A stretch of 64,000 nt of DNA. Source: Bradyrhizobium sp. B097. GTDB taxonomy: Bacteria > Pseudomonadota > Alphaproteobacteria > Rhizobiales > Xanthobacteraceae. Each line of letters starts with the position of its first letter. Within the stretch, counting starts at the first letter, position 1. The DNA is taken from contig NZ_CP152412.1 in the NCBI RefSeq assembly GCF_038957035.1, forward strand, positions 7,002,501-7,066,500, read 5' to 3'. A program made the translations under genes and the position numbers. Below are positions 15,215 to 59,384 of the stretch, piece after piece. The notes below the pieces were generated by a model, which was not told where the DNA came from, made no database searches, and saw only the letters and a program-made list of their open reading frames with translations.

Positions 15215-15788
15215 CGGGTTACTACCTCAACTGTCATGAAACTCTTGCGCAAGCGCGACGAGGAGATCGTCTATCCCCTTGAAAGCTAGGCTGAGCTTCA
15301 AGACCCATCGTGCTACAGCTGGATGACGCTGATCGAATAATTCGATGGAATACCCTGTAATATGCGATGGCCACGGGTGCTTCGGAGCCTTAAAATGCGT
15401 TCAAGGCCCTCAGCAACTTCGTCGAGATCGCCTGACAGGGCACTTGTCACACGCAGCAACGAGTCTCGGCGCCGCTCTCTTGTGGAGCGCAACGCAATTT
15501 TGTCGCTAGAATCCGAAAGCGCTTCGTTTCGCTTTCGGCTGATCGTTCGATCTGGCCCTCAGGGCATTCGCACGTGTCGGCGCCGCACAGCACACAGAAC
15601 AGCGAACCCCTTGCTCGTCTTTCCGCCGGATGACGCCCAGCTCCGAGAAGCGCAATTCTCCGGCGACGCGACGCAACCATCGCAACTTGCGATCATTTCA
15701 TTCAACAAACGCGATTGTCCGTTTGTTCGCGACTTTGCCAGCGACTAGAAGCCGCCAACAATTTTGCGTCACACTTCAGGTGCTCCCT
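15215..15788. promoter_or_regulatory. Divergent control region of the transporter and phosphonate catabolic genes
   Basis: About 574 bp between the start of the ABC operon (minus) and the aminotransferase (plus). It should contain both promoters and probably sites for the LysR-type regulator encoded at 18250-19158. Several T-N11-A patterns exist but are too common to assign by eye. No coding sequence is recognised. Confidence 0.45.
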
Positions 15789-16987
15789 TTGTCTCTCGTT
15801 GCAGAACGGCTCAAGCTTGTCCGCCCCTCTGAAACCAAGGCCATGACCGCGCGCGCGGCCGAGCTGCGCGACCGGGGTTTCGATGTGATCACGCTCAGTC
15901 AGGGCGAGCCGGATTTCGAAACACCGACCGCGGTCCGCGACGCCGGTATCCAGGCAATCCGCGACGGGAAGACGAAATACACACCGGTCGCCGGCATCAA
16001 GCCGCTGCGCGAGGCGATCCGAAAGAGCCTGGATCGCGACCACGAGCTCGCTTACGGGATCGACCAGATCACGGTTGGTTGTGGTGCCAAGCAGGTCATC
16101 TTCAACGCCCTTTTCGCCAGCCTCGACGCAGGCGACGAGGTGGTGATCCCGACGCCGTGCTGGGTTTCATATCCCGATATGGTGACGCTTGCCGGTGGCA
16201 AGCCGGTCCTCATCGCCTGCGATGAATTCCATGAATTCAAGCTGCGTCCCGAGGCATTGGAAGCAGCGATCACGCCTCGTACCAAATGGCTGATGCTGAA
16301 CTCGCCCTGCAATCCGACCGAGCACTTTACAGCCGAAGCGAGCTGCTGGGGCTCGCGGCGGTGCTGCGCCGCCATGCCCATGTCCACGTGCTGTCCGACG
16401 ACATCTATGAAAAACTCACCTACAACGTCGACTTCGCCACAATGGCTGCGGTGGCACCAGACCTCTACGACCGCACACTGACGGTCAACGGTGTATCCAA
16501 GGCCGACGCAATGACCGGCTGGCGCGTCGGCTATGGCGCAGGGCCTCTGCCGCTGATCAAGTCCATGAACCTGATCCAGGGCCAGACCTCTTCACACACC
16601 AGTTCGATCTCGCAATATGCCGCGATCGAGGCGCTGTCCGGCGGACGGAAGCATATCGATGAATTTGCGAGCGCCTTCCTGCACCGTCGCGATCTTGTCG
16701 TTGCCAAGCTCAACCAGGCCCAGGGGCTTTGCTGCCGGGTGCCGGACGGCGCCTTCTACGTTTTCCCTTCCTGCGCGGGCGTTATCGGCAAGCGCACACC
16801 GAATCGCAAGGTGATCGAAACCGACACCGATTTCGCGATGTATTTGCTCGATGCTTTTGCCGTGGCCGTCGTACCCGGCAGCGGCTTCATGGCCTCGCCG
16901 TACATCCGTATTTCCTACGCTTCGTCGCTCGCGGACCTCACGCGGGCTTGCGACCGCATCATCGCCGCCTGCGCCACGTTGTCCTGA
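15789..16987 (+). pseudogene. Class I/II aminotransferase, interrupted by a one-base deletion (PalB-like)
   Basis: Two frames together encode one aminotransferase of about 399 residues. Frame 1 runs from a TTG at 15789 (LSLVAERLKLVRPSETKAMT) to NSPCNPT at 16320. The protein then continues in another frame from ALYSRSELLGL to the stop at 16987. Restoring one G at about 16321 (ACCGAGC to ACCGGAGC) gives the expected NPTG motif and joins the frames. The PLP-binding Lys is in VNGVSKADAMTGWRVGY. The family transfers amino groups between amino acids and 2-oxo acids. The next gene, phosphonopyruvate hydrolase, has its ribosome-binding site overlapping this stop, so the likely substrate is phosphonoalanine, giving phosphonopyruvate. 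Either a real pseudogene or a sequencing error; in the Variovorax Pal2 locus the corresponding gene is palB. Confidence 0.82.
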
Positions 16988-16998
16988 AGGATCTCCCG

Positions 16999-17871
16999 GT
17001 GTCCCCTGCCAAACGCCTGCGCGCCCGCATGGCCGAGACTGGCCTCGTCCACGTCATGGCCGCCCATAGCCCACTTTCCGCGATCCTTGCTGAAAAAGCC
17101 GGATTCGATGGCCTGTGGGCTTCCGGCTTCGAGCTGTCGGCGCTTTACGGCGTTCCGGACATGAGCCTGATCTCGATGACACAGCATCTCGACATGCTGC
17201 GGGCGATCGCTGGATGTACGAGGCTGCCAATTGTCGCCGACATCGATACGGGCTATGGCAATGCGATCAACGTGATCCACGCCATCGGCGAATACGAACG
17301 TGCCGGCGCCAGCGCCGTCGTCATCGAGGACAAGACCTTTCCGAAGGTGACGAGCCTTGCTGCCGGCGGGCGCCAGGAGCTCCTTCACATTGAGGAGTTC
17401 CAGGGCAAGATCGAGCCCGCCGTTGCGACAAGACGGGATCCGGATTTCCTCGTCATTGCCCGCACCGAAGCCCTGATCGCAGGACTTGGCGAGGCGGAGG
17501 CTCTGCGTCGAGCGCAAGCCTATGTAGAGGCCGGCGCGGACATGATCCTGATCCATTCGAAAAAGAAGGATCCTTGCGAGATCGAAAGCTTTTCGCGCAC
17601 CTGGAGCGCGCCGGTGCCCTTGGTCATTGTACCGAACGCCTACCCGGATCTCGACGCCGAGCGCGTCAAGGCGCTGCGCAACATCCGCATGATGATCTAC
17701 GGCAATTACGGCATTCGCGCTTCTGCCACTGCCATGCAGGAGACCTTCCGCCGAATCATTGCCGACGGCGGTGTCCACCACGTCCACAAGGACATTCTAC
17801 CGGTCGAGGAAATCTTCAGACTTCAAAGGATGGATGAGGTCAAAGCAGCCGAAGCTCGCTTCCTTCGCTGA
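16999..17871 (+). CDS. palA: Phosphonopyruvate hydrolase (PEP mutase/isocitrate lyase superfamily)
   Basis: 290 residues from a GTG at 16999 with an AAGGA ribosome-binding site, the same length as the Variovorax sp. Pal2 enzyme. The superfamily elements are present: WASGFELSALYGVPD near residue 40, the Mg-binding DIDTGYGNA at 81-89, and the gating-loop EDKTFPKVTSL at 110-120. Thr lies at position 118, where phosphonopyruvate hydrolase has Thr118 and PEP mutase has Asn122 (known from the Pal2 structure), so hydrolase is much more likely than mutase. The enzyme splits phosphonopyruvate into pyruvate and phosphate, a carbon-phosphorus bond cleavage not tied to phosphate starvation. It follows the aminotransferase by 11 bases and is followed by a LysR regulator. 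Residual doubt covers other superfamily members such as 2-methylisocitrate lyase. Confidence 0.88.
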   Translation: MSPAKRLRARMAETGLVHVMAAHSPLSAILAEKAGFDGLWASGFELSALYGVPDMSLISMTQHLDMLRAIAGCTRLPIVADIDTGYGNAINVIHAIGEYERAGASAVVIEDKTFPKVTSLAAGGRQELLHIEEFQGKIEPAVATRRDPDFLVIARTEALIAGLGEAEALRRAQAYVEAGADMILIHSKKKDPCEIESFSRTWSAPVPLVIVPNAYPDLDAERVKALRNIRMMIYGNYGIRASATAMQETFRRIIADGGVHHVHKDILPVEEIFRLQRMDEVKAAEARFLR

Positions 17872-19418: not shown

Positions 19419-20205
19419 TTACGACACATCATACTTGTCTTTGCGCTTGTGACGGAGCAATGCGCGATAACCGCCCCGGATAAGACGTAACCCCAGCTTG
19501 ACCAGACGAATGATCCGGCTGCGGAGATCGCTTGTTTTCCAGCCTCGATCGGGAATGCGAAGCGCGCCGAACAGGCCTTGCGCGATTTTGCGATAGCTGT
19601 TTCCTTCCAGCCATCCATCTGCGGCACGCAGAGCAAGGATGAGCCGATGCCGGGTCTGGATCGGCAGAGCACGTGGGGACGGCCCGAGGGGGCGCTGTTC
19701 GAGCGCTCGCCAAAAGCGCTGTGCCGCTCGCAAACGAACGTCGAAATCGCGGTCGAGCGGCAGATCGACGGCAATCACTGAGCGGCTCGATGGCAATTCT
19801 CTCAGCCAAAGGCGATGCTTCGCTCCTCCGAGCGGCACGACGGCATGCCATCCATCTGGCGCCCGACGAAGCTCGCTGCCCGTTAGCTTAGCGAGATCCA
19901 GGTCGTACCGTTTGGACGACCTCAAACCGATAGCAGGGTGGATGGGCAGCACGGTCGACAGCGCCTCGGGCGCCCAGAAAATGGCTTGTTTGTCGAACGG
20001 CGTTTGCGGATCCGCGGCGAAACGAAAGCCCCCACTTCCGTCGGAAGTCATCCGACATCGCGCCGGATCGTTCGCTGCTGGCCAGGACCTCATAGTCTCT
20101 TTCATACTCAACGTCGCGACGTAGACATTCCCAGGCTATGTCCTCCGTTTCTGCCGTCTTGGCAGCAGGATATGCTTGCTTTGATCTCCAGTCAGCAACC
20201 GCCAT
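19419..20205 (-). CDS. fseA: FseA-type excision activator, fused from two frames by +1 ribosomal frameshifting (DUF6499 + DUF2285)
   Basis: Frame 0 starts at the ATG at 20205 (MAVADWRSKQAYPAAK) and encodes a DUF6499 domain (EDIAWECLRRDVEYERDY) up to WGLSF at residue 62. The continuation lies in the +1 frame (AADPQTPFDKQAIFW), carrying the DUF2285 domain to the stop at 19419; without the shift, frame 0 runs on as unrelated residues to 19888. The junction is the codon TTT at 20022-20020 followed by C, exactly the UUU-to-UUC slip of tRNA-Phe shown for msi172/msi171 in ICEMlSymR7A, where the fusion FseA activates rdfS and hence ICE excision. The fusion here would be 261 residues. qseM- and qseC-like genes follow, as expected for this control circuit. 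A random one-base indel is the alternative. Confidence 0.85.
20019..20022 (-). promoter_or_regulatory. Programmed +1 frameshift site in fseA
   Basis: On the minus strand the frame 0 codons are ...GGG CTT TCG TTT followed by C. tRNA-Phe on UUU can slip one base forward to UUC, after which GCC GCG GAT is read in the +1 frame. The encoded WGLSF context corresponds to the conserved motif in which slippage occurs in M. loti. Confidence 0.75.
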
Positions 20206-20360
20206 CGTATTTTCTTCCCCGCACGTTCACGCAAGGAAATTGCAGCCCCACGATTGTGACGATTTCTGGTTGCACCAATGCATTTGTTCGATGTTGATGC
20301 GCTCAATCGATGGAACAATCTACTTTTGCGATGAGAGCTGGATAGAAATTCACGTCCGCT

Positions 20361-20648: not shown

Positions 20649-21079
20649 TGCCTGGAACTCCTAGCAAACCGAAAAACCTCTATCCAAATCGAAACGAAGG
20701 TAACCGTATTCATGGCACCTTGGTACCGTCCAATTGTCGCGGTCCGCAGGAATCCCGCCGAAATCGATTGGAGCCCACCACCGGAAACTTTGGCATCCTT
20801 GGTTCCGTCGATCGTTTTCCATTCCACTCGCCCCGATTTTGGTCAATTGGATTTGATTGCAGTCCATGTCGCTCGCAGCACGATCAGCAGATTTGCCATC
20901 CAGCTCGTGTGTGCTCGCTTCTTGCCTACGAGACAGAATCGAGGTGTGCGATTTGTGCGACACGTTGCGTGCTCGCTACCGGATGGCTTTGTCGCTCGGT
21001 CCGGCCGGCTGGTAAGAACTTCGTTCTCAATTTCGAACCCCAAGTGTCTCAAGTTTGCTATTTGGCCGCGCGGCCAAGA
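20649..21079. other. 431-bp stretch without a recognisable gene
   Basis: Between qseM and a decayed qseM copy. Open frames on both strands are short and have no recognised domain; one minus-strand frame at 20661-20963 (100 codons) cannot be supported. In other ICEs qseM and qseC are directly divergent, so this stretch is an extra insertion or decayed DNA. Confidence 0.4.
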
Positions 21080-21275
21080 AACACGGTAATCCTAGTTGGC
21101 TGTCCGTTTTGCGCCCGCCATTGGCTAACGAACGCCTCGCGAGCACGTTCTGCCAGCGATCTGGGTTGGCATGCAGTACGATCCGAGCAACTTCTTTCCA
21201 GTCGGCGTCAGCGGCTTCGGCATCAAGAAGTTGCCAGCAGATGACAAGGTCTGCTCGTCACGGGCAGTAAGCACT
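21080..21275 (-). pseudogene. Decayed second qseM-like (DUF2285) gene
   Basis: Three minus-strand frames in succession resemble parts of one DUF2285 protein: VLTARDEQTL (compare ELTPYDEQHV in the intact copy), then WQLLDAEAADADWKEVARIVL (compare RLLDAQADNADWREVARIVL), then ERAREAFVSQW (compare DRARRAFDTHL). Two frame changes separate them and the 3' part is lost. It sits directly before the first qseC-like gene and on the opposite strand, which is the normal qseM position. Confidence 0.7.
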
Positions 21276-21390
21276 GAACTATCCGGAGCAGGATCGGTGA
21301 GGATTGAGTGACGGGATCCGGTTGATCTTAAGCATGCGCAGCAGATTGACGCAGTTTCCGTTCACAACGGACGCGAGACGACATTTTGTT

Positions 21391-21417
21391 AAGTATATCG
21401 AGGTGCAGTATATCGAG
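21391..21417. promoter_or_regulatory. Candidate QseC operator, copy 1
   Basis: Two GTATATCGAG half-sites in direct order, separated by a short GTGCA spacer, lie 21-47 bases before the first qseC-like start. The same place in copy 2 forms an inverted repeat. Small XRE repressors bind such sites; assignment is inference. Confidence 0.45.
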
Positions 21418-21437
21418 CAAGCGGCATTCTTTCCCGC

Positions 21438-21662
21438 ATGGACTTGCGGGAGACATTCGCCACCAATTTGCGCCGTTTGCGCAATGCGAGGGGATGGTCG
21501 CAAGACGAGCTTGCCTTCGAGGCAAAGATAAGCCGGGGCTATTTGAGTCAGCTTGAAAAGGGCGAGTATTACGTCAGCATTAAAGTCATAGGTCGCCTTG
21601 CCGACAAGCTCGACGTTGAGCCTGCTGAGTTCCTGAAACGGCCTGCAAAGAGAAGTCGCTAG
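21438..21662 (+). CDS. QseC-like small XRE-family repressor, copy 1
   Basis: 74 residues, nearly all a Cro/CI-type helix-turn-helix: FATNLRRLRNARGWSQDELAFEAKISRGYLSQLEKG, then VIGRLADKLDVEPAEFL. In ICEMlSymR7A, QseC is a similar small helix-turn-helix protein that represses qseM and controls itself, making a bistable switch. The gene is transcribed away from the decayed qseM copy. The ribosome-binding site is weak. Confidence 0.75.
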   Translation: MDLRETFATNLRRLRNARGWSQDELAFEAKISRGYLSQLEKGEYYVSIKVIGRLADKLDVEPAEFLKRPAKRSR

Positions 21663-21866: not shown

Positions 21867-22343
21867 ATGGACTTGCGGGAGACATTCGCCACTAATTTGC
21901 GCCGTCTGCGCAATGCGAGGAGATGGTCCCAAGACGAACTTGCCTTCGAGGCCGAGATCAGCAGGAGCTATTTGAGCAAGCTTGAAAAGGGCGCGTACTT
22001 CGTCAGCATCAAAATCATAGGTCGCATTGCCGACAAGCTGGACGTTGAGTCTGCTGAGTGCCTGAAATGGCCCGCAAAGAGACCGCCAGGTAGGCACATC
22101 CCAATACGCGTCTTACTCTCAATCCATTTCTTCTCATCTCTTCGACAACCCTTGAATGCCGGTCTAGGTGGTTTCCGGCGGCCGGTTAGGGGCTTTCGCG
22201 CCGCTAACGTGGATTCGAGATGGGCGGACGAACGTGCGCGTCGATGTGATCGTTGGAATGATCCCGACGATCTGCGTGGCGACATCGGCAACAGAAGCTC
22301 GGGACGGCGCGACACTAGCAACTGCTGGGTCGTCATTTCATAG
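21867..22343 (+). CDS. QseC-like XRE-family protein, copy 2, with 3' read-through extension
   Basis: The first 72 residues duplicate copy 1 with about a dozen substitutions (FATNLRRLRNARRWSQDELAFEAEISRSYLSKLEKG). An indel near 22080 (AGACCGCC in place of AGAAGTCGC) removes the stop used by copy 1, and the frame continues for about 85 residues of low-complexity Arg/Asp-rich sequence to 22343. The extension has no recognised domain and is probably an accident. Whether this copy still binds the same operator is unknown; the recognition helix residues are largely kept. Confidence 0.65.
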   Translation: MDLRETFATNLRRLRNARRWSQDELAFEAEISRSYLSKLEKGAYFVSIKIIGRIADKLDVESAECLKWPAKRPPGRHIPIRVLLSIHFFSSLRQPLNAGLGGFRRPVRGFRAANVDSRWADERARRCDRWNDPDDLRGDIGNRSSGRRDTSNCWVVIS

Positions 22344-31401: not shown

Positions 31402-32301
31402 TTAAAAGTCTAACGGACGCAAGCCAGTTGCCCGTGCAGCAGCGATTACTGTGTTGACCATCAGCATAGCTATGGTCATTGGCCCAACTCCTCCCGGAAC
31501 CGGAGTAATAGTCCCAGCGATGCGCGCCGCTTCAGAGAATGCGACATCGCCCACAAGCTTGCTCTTGCCGTCCCCCTTCTCTGGAGCAGGCAGACGATTG
31601 ATACCAACGTCAATCACCGTCGCGCCGGGCCTAATCCATCCCGCATTGACCATTTCGGCCCGGCCTATTGCAGCCACCACTATGTCGGCCGTCCTCGTCA
31701 AGGCGGCGAGTTGCTTCGTACGAGAATGCGCCATGATGACGGTAGCGTTCGCGTTGAGAAGCAGTTGCCCCATTGGCTTCCCAACCAAGTTTGACCTTCC
31801 AATCACAATGGCGTTCAACCCAGATAAATCGTCCCCATGTACGCTGCGTACCAAGAGCATTGCTCCCGCAGGGGTGCACGAAATCAGTCCTGTATCCAGA
31901 TCGCCGACCGCCAACTTGCCGGCATTGGTGACATGTAGCCCGTCGACGTCCTTGTCCGGCCGGATGGACTGAATGACCACGTCACTGTCCAAGTGCTTGG
32001 GCAGGGGCAGCTGCACCAGAATGCCATGGATCGATGGATCGGCATTGTGGGCGCCGACCAGTCCGTTGAGCATCTCCTGGCTCGTCTCCGCCGGCAACGT
32101 GTGCTGCACTGAATGGAAGCCGCATTCTTTAGCCATACGGCTTTTCGCGGCAACGTAAGCGTGGCTCGCCGGGTCGTCGCCGACAATAATGACTGCAAGG
32201 CCCGGCTTCGTGCCCGTCTCGGACGCGATCCTTGCGGCTTCGGCCTTGACCACCTCAATCACTGAGGCTGCCGCACTCTTTCCATCGATAACACGTGCCA
32301 T
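31402..32301 (-). CDS. folD: Bifunctional methylene-THF dehydrogenase/methenyl-THF cyclohydrolase FolD
   Basis: 299 residues, normal length. It converts 5,10-methylene-THF via methenyl-THF to 10-formyl-THF with reduction of NADP. The catalytic YxxxK is in [14 protein letters not shown], the folate motif in [12 protein letters not shown], the dinucleotide motif in [17 protein letters not shown], and the C-terminal signature is [15 protein letters not shown]. It begins three bases after the purU stop and closes the minus-strand operon. This is probably an extra, pathway-specific copy that oxidises methylene-THF released by the neighbouring four-subunit oxidase. Confidence 0.95.
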
Positions 32302-32304
32302 GCA

Positions 32305-33186
32305 TTAGCCCGTCCGTTTAGAGGCGTAGCTTCCTGGGCTCGCCGGAAAGACCACTGTGCGACTTCCATCAATAAAGGTGCGGTGATGAATGTGCGCGTG
32401 AATGGCGCGTGCCAGGACTTGGCTTTCGACATCCCGTCCGAGCGCAACATAGTCGTCTGGGCTATGTGCGTGCGTTATGCGCACGATATCCTGCTCAATG
32501 ATCGGCCCCTCATCGAGATCGGCCGTTACATAATGGGCCGTAGCACCAATCAACTTCACTCCACGCTGATATGCCTGCTTGTAGGGGCTTGCCCCCTTAA
32601 AGGATGGCAAAAAGGAGTGGTGAATGTTGATGATTTTTCCAGCCATCCTTTTGCAAAGGTGATCGGAGAGCACTTGCATATAGCGAGCCAGCACGATGAG
32701 CTCTGCACCCGTCTGCTCAACTAGCTCAACGAGCTGGGCCTCTGCCGTCGGCTTGTTCTCTTTCATCACTCTGATGTAGTGGAACGGAATGTCATGATTG
32801 ACAACGAGCTTCTGGTAATCTAGGTGGTTGGAGACGACACCCACGATCTCGATCGGTAGAGCGCCGATTCTCCAGCGATAGAGCAGATCGTTGAGGCAAT
32901 GACCGAACCGCGAAACCATTAGCAGCACTTTCATGCGCTTGGTCACATCGTAGAAGTGGTACTCCATAGAAAACTCTGCACCTATCGGCGAGAAGCCCTC
33001 GACAACCTGAGAAAGTGCCGCGCCTTCTTCCGAGACGAAGGACACACGCATGAAGAATTGGCCCGCATCGCAGTCATCAAATTGCGACGAGTCGATAATG
33101 TTGCAGCCTTTGCCGGCAAGATAACCCGCAACAGCGGCAACGATTCCGCGCCTAGTCTTACAGGAGACGGTCAAGACAAACTGCAT
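32305..33186 (-). CDS. purU: Formyltetrahydrofolate deformylase PurU
   Basis: 293 residues. It hydrolyses 10-formyl-THF to formate and THF, recycling the folate carrier. An N-terminal ACT-like domain (FVLTVSCKTRRGIVAAVAGYLAGKGCNIIDSSQF) is followed by a formyltransferase-type domain (VGVVSNHLDYQKLV, INIHHSFLPSFKGASPYKQAY, GATAHYVTADLDEGPIIEQD) with the catalytic His and Asp. It lies between glnT (72 bp upstream) and folD. Together with FolD it forms a short route from methylene-THF to formate, as in other sarcosine and N-methyl compound catabolic clusters. Confidence 0.95.
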   Translation of the reverse strand: MQFVLTVSCKTRRGIVAAVAGYLAGKGCNIIDSSQFDDCDAGQFFMRVSFVSEEGAALSQVVEGFSPIGAEFSMEYHFYDVTKRMKVLLMVSRFGHCLNDLLYRWRIGALPIEIVGVVSNHLDYQKLVVNHDIPFHYIRVMKENKPTAEAQLVELVEQTGAELIVLARYMQVLSDHLCKRMAGKIINIHHSFLPSFKGASPYKQAYQRGVKLIGATAHYVTADLDEGPIIEQDIVRITHAHSPDDYVALGRDVESQVLARAIHAHIHHRTFIDGSRTVVFPASPGSYASKRTG

Positions 33187-33258
33187 GACGTAGATCTTTC
33201 ATGCGTCGGCAAGCCCTGAACGTCGGGATCAAGCTTGCGGATGCTCGCTGGAGATAGA

Positions 33259-34560
33259 TCAGATATCCAGGGTGTTCTGGTGTTCCCAAGCCGTAAATTG
33301 GGCGCAGTAAGTGTTCCACTCGCAATGCTTGAGCTTCAGATACGCTGAAGAGAAGTCGGTGCCGAGCGCAACATGTAGCGCGGCATCCTTCTCGTACTCA
33401 CGCAGTGCGTCCAGCAGATTTAGCGGCAGCTTCGGCGCATCGGTCACGGTATGACCGTCCTTGTACATGTCAATATCATAGTGACGGCCCGGATCCGCCT
33501 TGCAGCGGATACCCGACAATCCTGCGGCAATAATAATGGCCTGGAGCAAGTACGGATTCGCTGCTCCGTCGGGCAAACGGAGCTCGAAGCGACCGGGGCC
33601 AGGCACGCGCACCATGTGCGTCCGATTGTTACCTGTCCAGGTGACAGCGTTGGGAGCCCAAGTCGCCCCGGAAATTGTGCGCGGCGCGTTTATGCGCTTG
33701 TAGGAGTTCACGGTCGGATTAGTGATGGCCGTCAATGCCGAGGCATGCTTCATGATGCCGCCAAGGAAATTGCGCCCCTTCTCCGATAAGCCGAAGGGCA
33801 TCAACTTGTCAGTGAATGCGTTGTTCCTTCCTTCAACGTCCCAGACCGAGATGTGAACGTGGCAGCCATTTCCGGTTAGTCCCTTGAATGGCTTTGGCAT
33901 GAAAGTCGCGCGCAACGCGTTCTTCTCAGCTATCGATTTCACCATGAACTTGAAGAAGGAATGCTTGTCGGCTGTTTTCAGCGCGTCATCATATTCCCAG
34001 TTCATTTCGAATTGACCGTTCGCGTCCTCATGATCGTTCTGATAAGGTTTCCAGCCGAGCTCAAGCATGCAGTTACAAATCTCGGCAATCACGTCATAGC
34101 GCCGCATGACTGCTTGCTGATCGTAGCAGGGCTTTTCGGCTATATCATACTCGTCAGAGATTTTAGAGCCATCAGGCGAAATCAAAAAGAATTCAGGCTC
34201 CACACCCGTCTTGATTCGCAATCCTTCGGAAGCGGCATCCTCGATGAGATTTTTAAGTACAACGCGGGGGGCCTGCTGGACCGGCTTGTCATCCATGGTG
34301 CAGTCTGCCGCGACCCACGCCACATCCTTCCTCCACGGCAGTCGAATGACCGAGGATGCATCAGGCATAGCGAACAGATCTGGGTGCGCAGGCGTCAAAT
34401 CAAGCCACGTTGCGAATCCAGCAAAGCCAGCTCCCTCGCTCTGCATTTGGGCAATTGCCTGAGCTGGGACCAGCTTCGCCCGTTGTCCGCCAAACAGGTC
34501 GGTGTAGCTGATCATAAAATACTTGACGCCATGCTCCTGGGCGTAGGCTGAAAGATCCAT
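33259..34560 (-). CDS. glnT: GlnT-type glutamine synthetase, probable gamma-glutamylmethylamide synthetase
   Basis: 433 residues. The glutamine synthetase beta-grasp start (DLFGGQRAKLVPAQAI) and catalytic domain motifs are clear: GVEPEFFL, NDHEDANGQFEMNWEY, FMPKPFKGLTGNGCHVHISVW, NRTHMVRVPGPGRFELRLPDGAANPYL. It belongs to the GlnT group that also contains gamma-glutamylmethylamide synthetase, which joins glutamate and methylamine using ATP. The adjacent glutamate-synthase-like genes and four-subunit oxidase are the partners of that enzyme in the N-methylglutamate pathway, so methylamine ligation is the better guess than ammonia assimilation. Proof would need assay. Confidence 0.88.
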   Translation of the reverse strand: MDLSAYAQEHGVKYFMISYTDLFGGQRAKLVPAQAIAQMQSEGAGFAGFATWLDLTPAHPDLFAMPDASSVIRLPWRKDVAWVAADCTMDDKPVQQAPRVVLKNLIEDAASEGLRIKTGVEPEFFLISPDGSKISDEYDIAEKPCYDQQAVMRRYDVIAEICNCMLELGWKPYQNDHEDANGQFEMNWEYDDALKTADKHSFFKFMVKSIAEKNALRATFMPKPFKGLTGNGCHVHISVWDVEGRNNAFTDKLMPFGLSEKGRNFLGGIMKHASALTAITNPTVNSYKRINAPRTISGATWAPNAVTWTGNNRTHMVRVPGPGRFELRLPDGAANPYLLQAIIIAAGLSGIRCKADPGRHYDIDMYKDGHTVTDAPKLPLNLLDALREYEKDAALHVALGTDFSSAYLKLKHCEWNTYCAQFTAWEHQNTLDI

Positions 34561-34622
34561 CTTTTCCCCGTGTGTCGTTTAATTGGTCGTTCCCCGGTCT
34601 TTCCGTCTCTCAGCAGAATCTC

Positions 34623-35951
34623 TCAGAAGTCTCCCTTGCCAGGAAACCAGCTGGTCCCAGCCAATGGTACACGGGCCATGGCCGCTGCCTCTAACGTCAG
34701 CGCACACAGATCCTCGGGCTCCAGATTGTGCAGATGGTTCTTTCCGCACGCCCGTGCGATCGTCTGCGCTTCGAGCGTCATGACCTTTAGATAGTTGGCA
34801 AGGCGGCGGCCCGCAGCGACTGGATCGAGCCGCTGCATCAATTCCGGATCTTGCGTGGTGATTCCGGCTGGATCCTTACCTTCATGCCAATCGTCATAGG
34901 CTCCCGCGGTCGTACCTAGCTTCCGGTATTCGTCCTCCCAGCGGGGATCATTGTCTCCAAGCGCAACGAGAGCGGCCGTACCAATAGCAACTGCGTCGAC
35001 ACCAAGCGCAAGCACCTTCGCAACATCTGCGCCCGAACGAATGCCGCCCGAGATGATCAGTTGCACCTTGCGATGCTGGCCAAGGTCCTGCAAAGCTTGG
35101 ATGGCGGGGCGGATGCACGCGAGCGTTGGCATACCCACGTGCTCGATGAAGACGTCCTGCGTCGCAGCAGTCCCACCTTGCATACCGTCCAACACCACAA
35201 CATCCGCACCTGCCTTAACCGCCAGCGCCGTGTCGTAGTAGGGACGGGCCCCGCCGACCTTCACATAAATGGGCTTTTCCCAATCGGTGATCTCGCGCAG
35301 CTCCAGGATCTTGATTTCGAGATCGTCCGGTCCAGTCCAATCAGGGTGACGACAGGCAGAGCGCTGGTCGATCCCTTTGGGCAGATTGCGCATGGCAGCG
35401 ACGCGATCGGAAATCTTCTGACCGAGCAGCATGCCTCCGCCGCCAGGTTTCGCTCCCTGACCGACGACAATCTCGATGGCATCCGCGCGACGCAAGTGCT
35501 TCGGATTCATACCGTAACGCGACGGGAGATACTGGTAGACGAGCGTTTGGGAATGGCCCCGCTCTTCCTCAGTCATGCCTCCATCGCCAGTAGTAGTAGA
35601 CGTCCCGGCGGCTGTGGCGCCGCGACCGAGCGCCTCCTTCGCGTGAGCGGATAGGGCACCAAAGCTCATGCCAGCGATTGTAATTGGAATCTTGAGCTCA
35701 ATAGGTTTTTTCGCAAAACGAGAGCCAAGCACGACTGACGTGTCACACCTCTCGCGATAGCCCTCGAGCGGATAGCGCGAGATAGATGCGCCCAGAAACA
35801 AGAGGTCGTCAAAATGCGGCACCTTGCGCTTGGTACCGGCACCGCGAATGTCGTAGATACCGGTAGCAGCAGCGCGGCGGATCTCGGCCAGAGTATGGTC
35901 GTCAAAGGTCGCTGATTTGCGCGGGGGAGTGTGGGGATTGTGGTAGCTCAT
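34623..35951 (-). CDS. N-methylglutamate synthase-like FMN subunit (MgsC/GlxD)
   Basis: 442 residues related to the synthase domain of glutamate synthase. FMN-binding and catalytic elements: MSFGALSAHAKEALGRGA, VVGQGAKPGGGGMLLGQKISD, YVKVGGARPYYDTALAVKAGADVVVLDGMQGG, LIISGGIRSGADVAKVLALG. In methylotrophs, MgsC with MgsA and MgsB transfers a methylamine unit from gamma-glutamylmethylamide to 2-oxoglutarate to give N-methylglutamate; in rhizobia the same set is annotated glxBCD. It starts 15 bp after the mgsB-like stop. Confidence 0.88.
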   Translation of the reverse strand: MSYHNPHTPPRKSATFDDHTLAEIRRAAATGIYDIRGAGTKRKVPHFDDLLFLGASISRYPLEGYRERCDTSVVLGSRFAKKPIELKIPITIAGMSFGALSAHAKEALGRGATAAGTSTTTGDGGMTEEERGHSQTLVYQYLPSRYGMNPKHLRRADAIEIVVGQGAKPGGGGMLLGQKISDRVAAMRNLPKGIDQRSACRHPDWTGPDDLEIKILELREITDWEKPIYVKVGGARPYYDTALAVKAGADVVVLDGMQGGTAATQDVFIEHVGMPTLACIRPAIQALQDLGQHRKVQLIISGGIRSGADVAKVLALGVDAVAIGTAALVALGDNDPRWEDEYRKLGTTAGAYDDWHEGKDPAGITTQDPELMQRLDPVAAGRRLANYLKVMTLEAQTIARACGKNHLHNLEPEDLCALTLEAAAMARVPLAGTSWFPGKGDF

Positions 35952-35966
35952 AGATGTTCACTCGCC

Positions 35967-36653
35967 TTAGTACGCGTCCGCGTTGTCGATATTGAAATTG
36001 TAGAGTTTGCGCGCTGAGCCGTAACGCTTAAACTCCTCCGGTTTCACGCCTTTGACGCCTGCCAATTCGAGCAATGCTGCCAGCTTCGTAAGATGTTCAG
36101 GACGCATGTCTTTCGCGACACAGTCGGCACCCAGGCTTTTCACTGCACCACGTACGAAGATTTTCGCTTCGTAAAGTGAATCCCCCAAGGCTTCGCCCGC
36201 ATCGCCCAGCACAACCAGGTGCCCGGATTGCCCCATAAACGCCGACATGTGACCGATGTTACCGTGCACAACGATGTCGATGCCCTTCATCGAGATGCCG
36301 CAGCGGGAGGCAGCATTGCCCTTGATGACGAGCAAACCTCCACGGCCTGTAGCACCAGCATACTGACTGGCGTCCCCCTCGACGACGACAACCCCCGACA
36401 TCATGTTCTCTGCGACACCGGGGCCGGCTGAACCTCGCACGGTAATAGCACCACCATCGTTCATGCCGGCGCAATAGTAACCCACCGGCCCCCGCACCGT
36501 GACCACCACCGGCTGGTCGACGCCAACCGCGATCGAGTGACTGCCCCGCGGATTGACTACCTCGAAAGCCGTGTCATTGGCCCCAGCAGAAAGCCTATGA
36601 AGCGCAGCGTTGAGTTCACGGAGGCTTTGAACAGAGAGATCGAACGTGGGCAT
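35967..36653 (-). CDS. N-methylglutamate synthase-like GXGXG subunit (MgsB/GlxC)
   Basis: 228 residues forming the right-handed beta helix of the glutamate synthase C-terminal (GXGXG) domain: repeated turns such as VTVRGPVGYYCAGMNDGGAITVRG, GVVVVEGDASQYAGATGRGG, VIKGNAASRCGISMKGIDIVVHGNIG. In glutamate synthase this domain is structural and couples the amidotransferase to the FMN site. It lies between the mgsA- and mgsC-like genes, matching mgsABC order. Confidence 0.9.
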   Translation of the reverse strand: MPTFDLSVQSLRELNAALHRLSAGANDTAFEVVNPRGSHSIAVGVDQPVVVTVRGPVGYYCAGMNDGGAITVRGSAGPGVAENMMSGVVVVEGDASQYAGATGRGGLLVIKGNAASRCGISMKGIDIVVHGNIGHMSAFMGQSGHLVVLGDAGEALGDSLYEAKIFVRGAVKSLGADCVAKDMRPEHLTKLAALLELAGVKGVKPEEFKRYGSARKLYNFNIDNADAY

Positions 36654-36709
36654 GACTTCCCTTCTTGGAGCTTTCGCAGCAAACAGCAGATGGTCTGCGA
36701 CAATATTCG

Positions 36710-37609
36710 TCAGGCGGCCTTATCGTGGTCCCAGAAATAGACGGTGGCCGGCTCCGGCTCCCAGATTCGAGCCGCCTCAATACCCGGAAGCACAGCGAGG
36801 GCGCGGTATTCGGTCCCAAAGGCGACGTATTGATCGGTCTCGGCCATGACAGCCGGCTTGCAGGCAATCGGGTCACGCAGGACGCCGAAGCCGGTCTTAG
36901 TGCCCACAACGAACGTAAAGAAGCCATCGAGATCATCGAGCGCACCGGCCAGAGCCTCCCCCAGATCCTTGCCCTTGGCCATTTCCGCGGTCAGATACGC
37001 GGCCGCGACTTCTGAGTCGTTGTCTGTCTCGAAGGTCATGCCCTCACGAACAAGTTGGCGACGAACGTTATTATGGTTCGACAAGGAGCCATTGTGCACA
37101 AGGCACTGGTCCGCCCCAGTTGAAAACGGGTGGGCGCCGAGCGTAGTGACCGCGCTCTCCGTCGCCATTCGCGTATGACCGATCCCGTGAGTTCCCTTCA
37201 TCGACCGGACACCGAAGCGAGCTACTACATCTTTAGGCAGACCCACTTCCTTGAAGATCTCCACGCTCCCGCCGGTCCCCATAATGCGCACGTTAGGACG
37301 GTGCGTCAGCAGAAAGCGGCGAATCTTGGCGGCTTCCGCCGACGTTTCGACTACCGCATGACTGCTCTTGACGAAAATGACCGCATCGATTCCGGCCGCG
37401 CGCAGATCCGCTTCAAGGCTAGCGAAGTCCACGTCAGGAGCCGGTGACTGCAGCGTCAACTTCGTCTTACCACCTTCCCTGCCGTAGATAGCGATTCCGG
37501 CCGAGTCTGGCCCGCGATCCGTCATCGTCACGAGCATGTCTGAGAGCAGGTCGCCCAACCGAAGCTCCAGAGTTTTGTCTTTCAAGAAGAGCCCAACGAT
37601 GCCGCACAT
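36710..37609 (-). CDS. Class II glutamine amidotransferase-like subunit (MgsA/GlxB)
   Basis: 299 residues from the ATG at 37609, chosen because it gives MCGIVGLFL with Cys2 as the N-terminal nucleophile of class II (Ntn) amidotransferases; the frame extends 22 codons upstream. Other family residues: DRGPDSAGIAIYG, GIGHTRMATES, HNGSLSNHNNVRRQLV. In the N-methylglutamate pathway this subunit would release methylamine from gamma-glutamylmethylamide and channel it to the synthase site. First gene of the minus-strand operon mgsA-mgsB-mgsC-glnT-purU-folD (all gaps under 75 bp). Confidence 0.9.
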   Translation of the reverse strand: MCGIVGLFLKDKTLELRLGDLLSDMLVTMTDRGPDSAGIAIYGREGGKTKLTLQSPAPDVDFASLEADLRAAGIDAVIFVKSSHAVVETSAEAAKIRRFLLTHRPNVRIMGTGGSVEIFKEVGLPKDVVARFGVRSMKGTHGIGHTRMATESAVTTLGAHPFSTGADQCLVHNGSLSNHNNVRRQLVREGMTFETDNDSEVAAAYLTAEMAKGKDLGEALAGALDDLDGFFTFVVGTKTGFGVLRDPIACKPAVMAETDQYVAFGTEYRALAVLPGIEAARIWEPEPATVYFWDHDKAA

Positions 37610-37821
37610 GCCCGCCCCGTTCAGATGAGATGCATCCGAGACCTGTACCAGCGGAAGATCGCGAAAACAACCCACAGGAACCTTTTTTTCTTATAGAGAA
37701 ACTCCCCCAAAGTGACCTGCTGCAAAGTTCAGCCAGCGGACGCCCCCCCCAAAGCGCTCAAGAAGCGCGAATCTCGTTCAAATTCTGATCGACGATAGTG
37801 CCCGGACAGGCGCTTTAGCGT

Positions 37822-38796
37822 TCACCCACCACGCAATGTACGCTTACGGGCGCTGCGAGGACTCCGGCCAAAGGCGGAGGCAAAAGCGCGCGAGAAATGG
37901 CCCGCACTCGAGAAGCCCGTCGCGAAGGCGATTTCAGACACCGACAAGGGGCTCTGCTCGAGTAGTCGTCGAGCATGGTCAAGGCGTATCCGACGATATG
38001 TATCGAGGAAGCCTGCATGCATCTCAGATGCGAACAGTCGGTCTAGATGGCGAACGCTGATATCGACGAAAGCGGCCATAGCCGAGCGCGATAGCGGCCG
38101 CTCAACTGAGGCCTCCATCTTTTCAAGGACGGCAAGCAGCGCAGGATGGTTTGTACCAAAGCGCTCAGCGGCAGCGCCCCGTTGCGGGGCACCCGGTTCG
38201 GCAATCGCCGTGTGCAAGTACCAATCACTAACACGGCGCGCGAAGTGGGGTCCCATCCGTTCACCAATGATTGCATGCATCATATCTAGCGGGGCTATAC
38301 CCCCGCCGCAGGTGATACGGTCGCCGTCAAGCACGTAGCGCGCTTGGCGCGGGGTTAGATGCGGAAAGGCTTCACGCAAAATCGGCGCATGTTCCCAATG
38401 GATGGTGAAGTCGCGATTATCGAGCAGGCCGGCTGCAGCGAGAATGTAGGCTCCGCTGGAGATTGCGCCGATACGGATGCCCTGCCGAGATAGCCGCCTC
38501 AAAACCGATACGAGCTGCTCGTGCCCAAGCCAATCCTGCCTTGTACCGCCCGCACAAACGAAGATCGTGTGACAACGCGCTCCTTCGGATGCGATCGACT
38601 TGCATGAAATGAGCAAGCCCGAAGAACTAGCAACCGGTGCAGCATCAGACGAAAGGGGCACAACCTCATAGAGCGGTACGCCTGACAAGAGGTTGGCGGC
38701 GCGCAGCGGTTCGCTTGCCGACGCGTAGGACATCAGCGCGAAATTCTCGATGAGCGCAAAGCCTATCCTTTGGGTGCTCTTCGGATTGAGCGGCAT
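37822..38796 (-). CDS. GlxA-family transcriptional regulator (DJ-1/PfpI plus AraC domains)
   Basis: 324 residues. An N-terminal class I glutamine-amidotransferase-like DJ-1/PfpI domain (IGFALIENFALMSYASASEPLRAANLL) lacks the nucleophile Cys at the elbow (IGAISSGAYILAAAG has Ser-Ser), as in many GlxA regulators, so it is a sensor and not an enzyme. The C-terminal AraC helix-turn-helix pair is clear (DISVRHLDRLFASEMHAGFLDTYRRIRLDHAR, SVSEIAFATGFSSAGHFSRAF). It is divergent from the four-subunit oxidase genes and precedes the mgs-like operon, so it probably controls both. Relatives sense carnitine or glycine-betaine metabolites. Confidence 0.9.
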   Translation of the reverse strand: MPLNPKSTQRIGFALIENFALMSYASASEPLRAANLLSGVPLYEVVPLSSDAAPVASSSGLLISCKSIASEGARCHTIFVCAGGTRQDWLGHEQLVSVLRRLSRQGIRIGAISSGAYILAAAGLLDNRDFTIHWEHAPILREAFPHLTPRQARYVLDGDRITCGGGIAPLDMMHAIIGERMGPHFARRVSDWYLHTAIAEPGAPQRGAAAERFGTNHPALLAVLEKMEASVERPLSRSAMAAFVDISVRHLDRLFASEMHAGFLDTYRRIRLDHARRLLEQSPLSVSEIAFATGFSSAGHFSRAFASAFGRSPRSARKRTLRGG

Positions 38797-38889
38797 GTCC
38801 CATTCTTACAGTTTATTGTCCCTTTTGTGCAATACTGTGAGCTGGTCGGCTGATAGCCTTTTCTTCCGTTTTCAGAGGCAAAGCACGGA
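38797..38889. promoter_or_regulatory. Divergent promoter region with inverted repeat
   Basis: 93 bp between the regulator and soxB. An imperfect inverted repeat, ACAGTTTATTG (38808-38818) and CAATACTGT (38830-38838), is a candidate binding site for the GlxA-family protein. Two AT-rich hexamers around it could serve as promoter elements; assignment is by eye. Confidence 0.45.
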
Positions 38890-40140
38890 ATGCGCTACTC
38901 GGCCCTATCGATTTTCCTACGCGGCCTTCGTGGCAACAAGCATTGGCGTCCAGCGTGGCGCGCGGCACAACCGAAACCTCGGTATGACGTTGTTATTGTG
39001 GGCGGCGGCGGTCACGGCTTGGCCACGGCCTACTACCTCGCCAAGGAGTTCGGCATCACCAACGTGGCAGTGCTGGAAAGGAGCTACATCGGCGCGGGCA
39101 ACGTAGGACGCAACACCACCATTATTCGTTCGAATTACCTGCTACCGGGAAACAACCCATTCTACGAACTATCAATGAAGCTCTGGGAGGGCCTCGAGCA
39201 GGATTTCAACTTCAACGCCATGGTCTCTCAGCGTGGCGTTCTGAATCTTTTCCATTCAGACGCGCAGCGCGATGCTTACATCAGGCGCGGCAACGCAATG
39301 CGCCTGCATGGAGTAGACGCCGAACTGCTCGATCGCGAAGCCGTTCGGAAGATGCTGCCCTTCCTTGATTTCGAAAATGCTCGTTTCCCAATCCAGGGCG
39401 GCCTGATCCAGCGCCGCGGCGGCACGGTTCGGCACGATGCCGTCGCTTGGGGATATGCGCGCGGCGCCGATATGCGGGGCGTCGACATTATCCAGGAATG
39501 CGAAGTGACTGGCATCAGACAGGCCGGTGGACGGGTACTCGGCGTGCAAACGACCAAGGGCTTCATCGGCTGCGGCAAGTTGGCTCTAGCCGTCGCCGGA
39601 AATTCTTCGCTTGTCGCCGAGATGGTTGACCTGAAACTGCCAATCGAAAGTCATGTGCTTCAGGCCTTTGTATCGGAAGGGCTTAAGCCCTTCATCGATT
39701 GCGTCGTTACATTTGGCGCCGGTCACTTTTACTGCTCGCAATCCGACAAAGGCGGTCTCGTCTTCGGCGGTGATATTGATGGCTACAATTCCTACGCCCA
39801 GCGCGGCAACCTCGCCGCCGTCGAGCATGTTGCGGAGGCCGGTAAGGCAATGATCCCGGCGCTGTCGCGCGTGCGCGTCCTTAGATCCTGGGGCGGGATT
39901 GTGGATATGTCTATGGATGGATCGCCGATCATCGACCGAACCCATATCGACAACGTCTATCTCAATGCCGGCTGGTGCTACGGCGGCTTCAAGGCCACTC
40001 CTGCATCCGGCTATTGCTTTGCGCATCTAATTGCTCACGACGCTCCGCAGGCGACGGCCACCGCTTTCCGTCTTGATCGGTTCGCACGCGGATTGATGAT
40101 CGACGAAAAAGGTCAGGGCGCCCAACCTAACTTGCACTGA
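38890..40140 (+). CDS. soxB: Sarcosine oxidase/N-methylglutamate dehydrogenase beta subunit (SoxB/MgdA-like)
   Basis: 416 residues. A DAO-type FAD fold begins with YDVVIVGGGGHGLATAYYLA, and the covalent-flavin and active-site region is typical of the heterotetrameric sarcosine oxidase beta subunit (VGRNTTIIRSNYLL). The enzyme demethylates sarcosine or N-methylglutamate oxidatively, passing the methyl carbon to THF. First of four genes in the order B-D-A-G with overlaps, as in other rhizobia. The adjoining N-methylglutamate synthase-like genes favour N-methylglutamate as substrate. Confidence 0.93.
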   Translation: MRYSALSIFLRGLRGNKHWRPAWRAAQPKPRYDVVIVGGGGHGLATAYYLAKEFGITNVAVLERSYIGAGNVGRNTTIIRSNYLLPGNNPFYELSMKLWEGLEQDFNFNAMVSQRGVLNLFHSDAQRDAYIRRGNAMRLHGVDAELLDREAVRKMLPFLDFENARFPIQGGLIQRRGGTVRHDAVAWGYARGADMRGVDIIQECEVTGIRQAGGRVLGVQTTKGFIGCGKLALAVAGNSSLVAEMVDLKLPIESHVLQAFVSEGLKPFIDCVVTFGAGHFYCSQSDKGGLVFGGDIDGYNSYAQRGNLAAVEHVAEAGKAMIPALSRVRVLRSWGGIVDMSMDGSPIIDRTHIDNVYLNAGWCYGGFKATPASGYCFAHLIAHDAPQATATAFRLDRFARGLMIDEKGQGAQPNLH

Positions 40141-40159
40141 TCCTACAAGGTCAAATGAG

Positions 40160-40435
40160 ATGGCAAGCCTCGTTCCATGTCCCCATTGCGGCGTCCGGCC
40201 GAAGGAAGAGTTTACGATCAAAGGTGCGGCGCTTAGGCGGCCCCTCCCGGATGCGCCGGTCGAGTCCTGGCTCGACTACGTTTACTTGCGCAACAATTCG
40301 CGCGGAACTCATGAAGAATTTTGGCATCATACCTCCGGTTGTCGCCGCTGGCTGATCGTGACCCGCAGCACTGTCACTCACGAAATTGAAGCTTCTCGGG
40401 ACGCCGCGGTGTCACTGCTGGATTCCAACACATGA
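40160..40435 (+). CDS. soxD: Sarcosine oxidase/N-methylglutamate dehydrogenase delta subunit
   Basis: 91 residues with the small zinc-binding subunit pattern: VPCPHCGVRPKEEF, then DYVYLRNNSRGTHEEFWHHTSGCRRWL with the third Cys and conserved His residues. The subunit is structural in the heterotetramer. It overlaps soxA (ATGA at 40432-40435), showing translational coupling. Confidence 0.93.
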   Translation: MASLVPCPHCGVRPKEEFTIKGAALRRPLPDAPVESWLDYVYLRNNSRGTHEEFWHHTSGCRRWLIVTRSTVTHEIEASRDAAVSLLDSNT

Positions 40436-43395: not shown

Positions 43396-43912
43396 TGTTG
43401 TCTTATTCTCTCGCGCAGCATTGGCCGACAGAGCACCATTGGTGATGGCTGACGTAAGCCTGAAGCCACTGTCAGATGGGCACATAGTTCTTGTAATAGC
43501 GAAGCCAGGGGGCGGGACCTCGAAGATGCCTGACCAATTGCGCGCTATCCCCTATTCGGTTCGTCCAGTTTCGCCCGGTCAATGGTTCATCGTTTCCGAG
43601 ACAGCGATCCCGCAGGATGCGTTGAGGGGGATGCTCGAAAGCCTAGCCCCTGAGGCGGTCGGCATTGACCAAAGTCACGGCCGAGTTCGTATCGCCATCA
43701 GTGGCCCGACCGTCGAACGTACGCTTGCGAAGGGTACGGGAGTTGACCTCGCTCTCTCCACCTTTCCGATCGGACACGCGACTACGACCCTGTTCGGACA
43801 CATCGCGGCCCATTTGACCCGCATCGATGAAACGTCGTTCGAGCTTATTGTCTTGCGCGGTTTCGCCGAAAGCTTGTGGGACGACCTCTTGCGCATGTCT
43901 TTGACCGCCTAG
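43388..43912 (+). CDS. soxG: Sarcosine oxidase/N-methylglutamate dehydrogenase gamma subunit
   Basis: 174 residues from the ATG at 43388 (MLDVVLFSRAALADRAPLVMADVSL), which overlaps the soxA stop by eight bases; earlier ATGs in frame lie deeper in soxA. It has the SoxG pattern (PGQWFIVSE, VGIDQSHGRVRIAISGPTVERTLAKGTGVDL, GHATTTLFGHIAAHLTRIDETSFELIVLRGFAESLWDDL). It completes the tetramer and ends the operon. Confidence 0.92.
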   Translation: MLDVVLFSRAALADRAPLVMADVSLKPLSDGHIVLVIAKPGGGTSKMPDQLRAIPYSVRPVSPGQWFIVSETAIPQDALRGMLESLAPEAVGIDQSHGRVRIAISGPTVERTLAKGTGVDLALSTFPIGHATTTLFGHIAAHLTRIDETSFELIVLRGFAESLWDDLLRMSLTA

Positions 43913-46853: not shown

Positions 46854-47705
46854 TCACTTTCCGGAATTGACCAACGAGACATCGCCGATTGAGCTATCTT
46901 CTTGTAGCCCATACTTTTTCAGGAGCTGGGCATAAGTGCCGTCGGCTATCACTTCATCCAAGGCTTTTTTCAAAGTGTCGCCTAGTTCCTTATTCTTTGC
47001 CAGATACGGGAAACCAAACAAGAAATTGGCCAAAGGAGGGCCTCCGAGCGGTTTGAAGACATCTTCTCCCTCGGCCTTCCTCGCCTGCGCGAATGCGGTG
47101 GCTCCAATAAAGCCGGCGTCCACTCGGCCCTGCTTCATCATCAGCTGTTGTTCTGATCCGTTAGCGACCTCCAGCTGCTCCACACCAGGTCTCCCAGCTT
47201 TCGTACAATTTTCCTCGCTCCAGCGTTCAACGGTTCCGAGCATGGCTTTGCTACCCCGCGTATTCGCCACACGTTTTCCGCATAGGGCGGCCAGGTCCTT
47301 GAATTGGTCGGCCTTCGCGGTGAGAGTGTAGAGATAGGTCGGCTCGTTCAGGAAGTCGATGAAGCTCACCCCGTTTTCGCGCCTCTCGGGCGTGTCCCAC
47401 ATGTCCCCTGTTGCGACATCTACGCGGCCAGTTTTAAGGGGAGCAAAGCTGGCTTGCTCCACCCAACCAGCTTCAATCCAGTTGACCTTTAACCCGGCCT
47501 TTTTGGCCATCGCCTCAAACAGGTCATGGTTGAAGCCCGTTAGCTCGCCGGTTTTGGGGTCCTTGAATTCTAGCGGTGGATAGATGACCACGGTCCCAAC
47601 GTTAATCGTCTTGCGCGACTCCTGCGCATAAGCAGCCGTGGTCAGTAGGCTCGCGCAGAGAGCGAAGCTAGAGACCAAATTACGCACGACAGATCTACTA
47701 GACAT
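46854..47705 (-). CDS. Amino-acid-type ABC transporter substrate-binding protein, paralogue 1
   Basis: 283 residues from the ATG at 47705 with a GGGGA ribosome-binding site; a signal peptide of about 27 residues ends in AYAQ. Family 3 solute-binding fold: INVGTVVIYPPLEFKDPKTGELTGFNHDLFEAMAKKAGLKV near the start, then GRVDVATGDMWDTPERRE and RGSKAMLGTVERW. Two close paralogues lie at 54565-55413 and 62459-63304; this and the second share a stretch of about 70 nearly identical bases. The paired Cys (LAALCGK, EENCTKAG) is conserved in all three. No permease gene is adjacent. The ligand is unknown, probably a polar amino acid or a related amine. Confidence 0.92.
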   Translation of the reverse strand: MSSRSVVRNLVSSFALCASLLTTAAYAQESRKTINVGTVVIYPPLEFKDPKTGELTGFNHDLFEAMAKKAGLKVNWIEAGWVEQASFAPLKTGRVDVATGDMWDTPERRENGVSFIDFLNEPTYLYTLTAKADQFKDLAALCGKRVANTRGSKAMLGTVERWSEENCTKAGRPGVEQLEVANGSEQQLMMKQGRVDAGFIGATAFAQARKAEGEDVFKPLGGPPLANFLFGFPYLAKNKELGDTLKKALDEVIADGTYAQLLKKYGLQEDSSIGDVSLVNSGK

Positions 47706-49098: not shown

Positions 49099-49117
49099 CG
49101 ATAAACTCGCCTCCAAC

Positions 49118-59287: not shown

Positions 59288-59384
59288 GTTCGTCTCCATC
59301 CTCGTTATCGCGGCGGGGTCCCATCTGGGGTCACCTTTCGCGCCCATTTGAACCAGATCATCAACCGGCTTAGAGCAGCCAAAG

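Follow-up and report, generated by a model that had tools for sequence, protein, structure and literature searches.

Symbiosis islands leave the chromosome at a time set by FseA-type genes, which are split or overlooked by annotation pipelines (PMC10359603). In the closest described system, ICEMlSymR7A of Mesorhizobium japonicum R7A, FseA (Msi172-Msi171) is made from a DUF6499 and a DUF2285 part that lie in two frames and are joined by a +1 shift, with a TGGGGG run by the residues WGL; that run is noted for the family as ribosome-binding-site-like (PMC10359603, section 25). The same paper gives the shift as a low-frequency event in the FseA family and puts the members that need it at about 61% of 4709, single-frame homologues being a known minority (PMC10359603). 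FseA turns on rdfS, whose product drives excision, and QseM blocks FseA by binding its DUF6499 part (PMC10359603, PMC11963761, and PMC5882170). Two further systems are useful for comparison. Plasmid p1 of Bradyrhizobium sp. 62B (CP092842.1) carries the gene order HTH (divergent)-qseM-fseA-rdfS-like HTH-repA, and RovC (PDB 6xz5), an activator of the Yersinia T6SS with a different target (PMC10359603), is a distant relative whose match to the protein studied here (E=1.8e-4) covers the AWECLRR region and the DUF2285-containing end.

We analyzed a window of 64,000 nucleotides, positions 7002501-7066500 of the one-contig, 9,252,481-base genome of Bradyrhizobium sp. B097. Its fseA locus shares with R7A the two domains in two frames, the +1 offset, and the TGGGGG by WGL, and the QseM partner and the rdfS target with its inverted-repeat box also have matches in this genome. 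In contrast to R7A, the window gene reads AWECLRRD (residues 24-31 of the fused protein, P0003) where R7A has AWEFLRRN, a difference of two letters in eight that still leaves the family's AWEFLRRN-like motif; fseA follows qseM here and traI2 in R7A (PMC5882170); a second fseA lies 32 kb away; and the island has a LuxR-type gene, with no LuxI found on it. Compared with 62B p1, the HTH-qseM-fseA side is alike in genes, order, and divergence, and TTT-C is common to both, whereas in the window's genome rdfS and the genes following it are about 483 kb away and the HTH gene is doubled.

Frames, domains, and neighbors of the window gene

The initial annotation had described a complete FseA-type gene, split between two minus-strand frames that meet at a TTT-C slip site, and direct base reading agrees with its positions throughout. 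The first half begins with ATG at 20205 and ends in WGLSF at the TTT (20022-20020), frame 0 there running TGG GGG CTT TCG TTT and then C (20019), with the G5 run at 20033-20029. The second half begins AADPQTPF, so that AADP opens it directly after the join, and runs 199 codons to a stop that ends at 19419; reading TTTC as a single Phe step gives the 261 residues that had been predicted (Table 1). PF20109 is found in the first half (P0001) at 65 bits against a cut-off of 23.8, and PF10074 in the second (P0002) at 115.3 bits against 26.4. In this gene the joining of DUF6499 to DUF2285 is read from sequence only; single-frame fused homologues exist. An AlphaFold2 model of the fused protein, built with 17 sequences, was too poor to assess the packing of DUF6499 helix 2 on DUF2285 (pLDDT 55.5, pTM 0.34), and a search for a downstream RNA stimulator in the 59 bases 3' of the slip found none (z +1.4).

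Table 1. Features of the fseA locus (positions in the window; strand as read)
Feature	Position	Strand	Remarks
fseA first half, DUF6499 / PF20109	20020..20205	-	62 codons, ATG to TTT, motif AWECLRRD
+1 slip site TTT-C (predicted)	20019..20022	-	TTT then C or T in 116/118 loci, window included
TGGGGG, ribosome-binding-site-like run	20029..20034	-	six bases 5' of slip codon
fseA second half, middle region + DUF2285 / PF10074 HTH domain	19419..20018	-	199 codons + stop, +1 frame
0-frame tail of unshifted product	19888..20019	-	43 codons + stop (ORF 19888-20205)
qseM-fseA gap	20206..20360	-	conserved blocks ATCGCAAAA..., CAACCAGAAATCGTCACA... (alignment of 23 loci)
qseM-like antiactivator gene, lone DUF2285, 95 aa	20361..20648	-	PF10074 42 bits
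XRE-type HTH gene, qseC position	21438..21662	+	divergent from qseM-fseA; placed by position
second tandem copy of HTH gene	21867..22343	+	extends past first copy's stop

The product of the adjoining qseM-like gene is a DUF2285 protein without DUF6499, similar to R7A QseM (PDB 7uqt; E=8.1e-22, 80.8 bits, 81 residues aligned). The conserved blocks in the gap between the two genes may possibly be a promoter or operator. The first HTH product is 49% identical over 74 aa to the HTH protein encoded divergently from qseM on 62B p1. The spacing from qseM to the divergent HTH gene (20661-21437) is about 0.4 kb longer than in the relative G239, and a 100-codon minus-strand ORF within it (20661-20963) had no Pfam match. 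On the other side, a LysR-like gene follows fseA in place of rdfS. The domains, the join, the TGGGGG by WGL, the adjoining QseM homologue, and the presence of rdfS- and tra/trb-like genes in the genome all support the FseA-type reading.

Conservation of the predicted slip site and of both frames

PF20109 matches occur in 190 of the 265 genomes of the genus (E<=1e-4) and in 14 of 289 genomes drawn from the class, the window's own included (E<=1e-6). We scored 118 loci, made up of 30 from the genus PF20109 survey, 30 from a second search (window included), 16 class loci outside its own genome, 40 further places hand-picked among the listed rows of the genus survey, and two further copies from the window's genome (L002, L003). 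At 115 of these, frame 0 has TGG GGN and, no more than a few codons on, TTT, with C after it in 101 and T in 14; the motif is TGG GGG in 58, the remainder having GGC, GGT, or GGA. Another locus, L199, falls outside the scripted motif with TGG AGG and still has TTT-C, so that TTT plus C or T stands at the join in 116 of 118 loci and is missing only from L163 and L003, single-frame genes of which the latter reads GCC TTC GCG GAT. Because the scoring script sought TTT, its use in the 115 loci is not an independent estimate, and 116/118 is the fair statement of conservation; elsewhere in these genes, TTT makes up 224 of 749 Phe codons. At 111 of the 115 scripted loci, the +1 frame of the C half runs for at least 150 codons without a stop; in the other four (L043, L052, L089, and L201), the C half is broken.

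Plasmids gave the same picture. A tblastn search returned 69 records, and in all eight named plasmids examined among the 40 matches listed, a TTT-C join stands in a WG(L/V/I)xF context with the second half in +1. They come from M. japonicum MAFF303099 (pMLb), M. loti NZP2037, Sinorhizobium medicae, Paracoccus versutus, Ketogulonicigenium vulgare, Methylocystis parvus, Novosphingobium resinovorum, and Bradyrhizobium sp. 62B, and cover the orders Hyphomicrobiales, Rhodobacterales, and Sphingomonadales. The site is kept in relatives, both among the scored loci and on the plasmids, and the locus is a genuine, conserved, and ordinary member of the published family that is common in the genus.

The nearby G5 run could raise the suspicion that an error of sequencing or assembly split a normal single-frame gene. 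The initial annotation thought such an error unlikely to fall on this site, and its judgment holds: 111 of 115 loci have the identical +1 offset at this position, which refutes the error, and the shift is needed in about 61% of the published family (PMC10359603), so that the chance of an artifact is negligible. The same annotation had named uninterrupted relatives without TTT-C as evidence that would speak against the fusion. Taken literally, L003 and L163 are such relatives; since single-frame homologues are a known minority of the family (PMC10359603), they do not refute the fusion, and they confirm it instead. A protein search with the fused sequence gave 482 matches at E<=1e-5, and six proteins among the 120 matches listed (P0016, P0018, P0019, P0030, P0037, and P0039) hold both Pfam domains in one chain at 97% coverage. 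These one-frame fusions read WGFLFAADPDQAFD (a WGFLFAADP join) where the window fusion has WGLSFAADPQTPFD.

It is also conceivable that the halves are two separate proteins, the DUF2285 half being translated from its own start without any frameshift, as has been argued for Azorhizobium rihF1a/b (PMC9601964). The window copy does offer four potential +1 starts 5' of the join (three ATG, one TTG), and a 210-aa stand-alone DUF2285 protein of the same type exists in databases (P0004). However, in the stretch of +1 frame from the last stop to the slip, an ATG, GTG, or TTG occurs in only 33 of 104 distinct intact loci, is preceded by a Shine-Dalgarno-like core in only 1 of the 104, and is absent 5' of the join from all seven closest orthologues, while the residues directly after the join are nonetheless conserved and one-frame fusions exist. 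We therefore regard independent translation as very improbable.

Each half, taken in its own frame, has dN/dS below 1: in 19 pairwise comparisons with the window gene (18 relatives and the second copy in its own genome), the ratio was 0.19-0.77 for the first half and 0.24-0.44 for the second, the value of 0.77 coming from one closely related pair that differs at few sites. The slip site and both frames are retained in seven orthologues with 91% DNA identity.

Natural variants of the site and further fseA copies

Frame 0 stops exactly two codons past the slip in 79 of the 115 loci, with UGA in 77. Read in +1, the U of this near UGA closes one codon and its GA opens the following Asp codon. Where the codon before Asp encodes His, it is CAT in 34 of 35 cases (first of 28 such columns in codon conservation), and where it encodes Ala, it is GCT in 36 of 42 (third of 31 columns), GCT being the rarest Ala codon in these genes (177/1306). 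The base needed for the 0-frame UGA is thus kept against codon preference, in rows that are related by descent and with counts uncorrected for the tree.

The near 0-frame stop is common elsewhere in the genus and missing from the window gene and its seven nearest orthologues, so that the unshifted product in this clade has 43 to 197 extra residues. In a tree of 104 rows, these eight genes form one well-supported clade, which makes a single loss the simplest reading. UUU-U in place of UUU-C is found in 13 of 104 distinct genes and corresponds to two changes on the tree. A tentative and rather doubtful interpretation is that the Bradyrhizobium slip site belongs to a fixed cassette in which the selected UGA would promptly release a 64-residue DUF6499 peptide; as this is the part bound by QseM, the peptide might sequester QseM and so set a transfer threshold; loss of the stop in the window clade, and UUU-U in two lineages, where re-pairing gains nothing, could then retune transfer. 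The remaining question is quantitative, namely, how natural site variants set transfer frequency, and genes with UUU-C or UUU-U, with or without the near 0-frame stop, along with the single-frame TTC gene, could be used to test what determines the rate of frameshifting.

The second fseA of this genome, with a TTT-C of its own, lies at 6989524-6990262 and belongs to a clade neighboring that of the window gene; no qseM match was found beside it. In G006 (partial), G253, G220, G038, G090, G079, G074, and G239, the orthologue likewise has a second match 3 to 34 kb away. By eye, the genes beside the second copy (L024 9752-12758; genome 6992252-6995258) are a PEP-mutase-like gene, a nucleotidyltransferase, and a CDP-alcohol phosphatidyltransferase, possibly a phosphonate pathway. 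The third copy, L003 (5466518-5467525), is in a single frame, with TTC where the window has TTT-C, and adjoins a LuxI/LuxR pair and the trb-like cluster of another ICE at 5.45-5.47 Mb. The sequence upstream of that third ICE's rdfS-like gene differs from the box described below at 3 of 12 positions, and integrase-like and dihydrouridine-synthase-like ORFs were seen by eye near its cluster. At 7177868-7178110 (L012), in the same stretch as the window, a DUF2285 match with an internal TGA represents a decayed QseM-like gene.

Such copies raise the possibility that the window gene is a decaying leftover, its shift cassette intact and its control of any target lost: there are two fseA copies 32 kb apart and a DUF2285 fragment with a stop at 7177868, the module is cut from rdfS, the near 0-frame stop is missing, the second HTH copy runs on, and IS-like fragments lie nearby (by eye). 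We consider this unlikely. Neither fseA half nor qseM is interrupted, dN/dS stays under 1 in each frame, and the slip site and both frames have been kept in the seven orthologues.

rdfS, transfer genes, and the extent of the probable element

A homologue of RdfS is encoded at 7505721-7505999 of the same genome (PDB 8dgl, E=2.5e-9), and an ACCGAA-N15-TTCGGC repeat stands 88 bp upstream of its start at 7505999. In the published FseA box, 15 or 16 bp separate the two inverted hexamers (PMC10359603, section 18). GCCGAA-N15/16-TTCGGC is present with at most one mismatch at 29 of 30 rdfS loci of the genus, its own included, and with two at the remaining one; in a shuffled control that altered base order only, 23 of 1550 sequences came within two mismatches of the box. 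As the hexamer letters were taken from the same rdfS alignment, this count is descriptive. The repeat has the published geometry and is a candidate binding site, its letters being compared within our own alignment alone. A second rdfS-like match, 41 kb from rdfS at 7464269-7464442, shares 46.6% identity with the rdfS-like ORF of the third ICE across 58 aa (E=5e-10).

Downstream of rdfS follow traF-, transglycosylase-, and rlxS-like ORFs and then traG and trbB to trbI, named by eye and by matches to the third ICE and to relatives' TrbE. The rlxS-, traG-, trbB-, trbE-, trbJ-, trbL-, trbF-, trbG-, and trbI-like ORFs are open where checked, the rlxS-like one matching PF03432 at 24.7 bits, just above the cut-off. 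The range 7485751-7487145 has three stops and starts well before the trbG-like ORF (7485742-7486716), which is itself open. With PF03135 at E<=0.001, the only TrbE detected genome-wide is at 5454653. We rejected the idea that the island lacks a mating apparatus of its own: a relative's TrbE aligns stop-free over 808 codons at 7489803-7492226. Given that PF03135 is weak on this type of TrbE, its zero matches in G220 and G239 mean little.

The symbiosis gene nodA lies at 6911846, in the same stretch as fseA, and GC content is 55-61% in most 10-kb blocks of 6.78-7.48 Mb. Among eight relatives with one to three contigs and any PF03135 match on the chromosome, six have a TrbE match within 0.55 Mb of the window orthologue (G193, G194, G036, G147, G215, and G088; not G196 or G106). 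Five relatives with at least 74% DNA identity had both fseA and rdfS listed on one contig, and among these matches rdfS lies within 0.62 Mb of fseA in three (G239, G193, and G194) and megabases away in two (G196 and G106). In more distant relatives, e.g., G213, G110, G059, and G172, fseA adjoins rdfS by coordinates. Because these genomes hold several ICEs each, such linkage to rdfS or TrbE is suggestive rather than proof. We identified no attachment sites and no island integrase. A tRNA-Tyr call at 6887159 was rejected as an attachment site (it overlaps an ORF, and its 3' part has no repeat longer than 14 bases in the 767.5-kb stretch). A PADLOC run gave nothing credible. Membership of the window and of rdfS, 483 kb away, in one mobile element is therefore inferred.

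The separation of the module from rdfS could also mean that the window gene is an FseA paralogue with another target on the island, e.g., the neighboring LysR, aminotransferase, and phosphonopyruvate-hydrolase/PEP-mutase-like genes, whose synteny with it recurs in relatives (HSPs of 71-86% identity). At 15512, some 0.1 kb ahead of the aminotransferase ORF, there is also an FseA-box-like site, with a single mismatch. However, one such site is unremarkable in 64 kb, where about 0.3 would be expected (a hand estimate at equal base frequencies), and fseA and rdfS are in separate operons in R7A too, which leaves a different target quite unlikely. The aminotransferase-like gene is itself split over two frames (15630-16481 and 16286-16987) and is followed by the phosphonopyruvate-hydrolase/PEP-mutase-like gene (TIGR02321, 358.8 bits, just below the cut-off); this stretch, 15630-17871, recurs beside fseA in relatives.

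The join and its conservation, dN/dS below 1, and the QseM, HTH, rdfS, and tra/trb-like genes together point to the FseA/QseM module of a Bradyrhizobium symbiosis ICE, and the window gene is very probably the fseA of that element, expressed by a +1 slip, activating rdfS, and controlled by QseM. Frameshifting, DNA binding, and inhibition by QseM are expected here from the R7A work. In R7A msi172/msi171, the P-site tRNA-Phe reportedly moves from UUU to UUC; the presumed identity of the present site with that slip, and the move itself, draw on the family literature. A ribosome on the DUF6499 frame would reach UUU with CGC as the next codon, and in a fraction of passes the Phe tRNA would re-pair one base on, from UUU to UUC, so that reading continued in +1 through DUF2285. 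As a dimer, the resulting 261-residue fusion would occupy the inverted repeat 5' of rdfS and turn on both rdfS and the transfer genes, RdfS would drive excision, and QseM, encoded immediately upstream of fseA, would block FseA by binding its DUF6499 part. This case would place an FseA/QseM module and its likely target on a Bradyrhizobium symbiosis island.

The window holds other clusters as well. At 31402-43912, genes resembling type III glutamine synthetase (TIGR03105, 664 bits), GltB, an amidotransferase, and soxB/soxA/soxG (713, 1469, and 125 bits, soxG below the cut-off) lie together with purU and, by eye, a folD-like ORF, a set that resembles an N-methylglutamate (methylamine) pathway cluster. 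Farther on, a membrane hydroxylase-like protein encoded at 48073-49191, for which no NCBIfam family was found, has a similar counterpart at 58274-59347. By eye, both lie between genes for three similar amino-acid-type ABC binding proteins spread over 17 kb (46854-47726, 54565-55413, and 62459-63304), as a repeated gene block.
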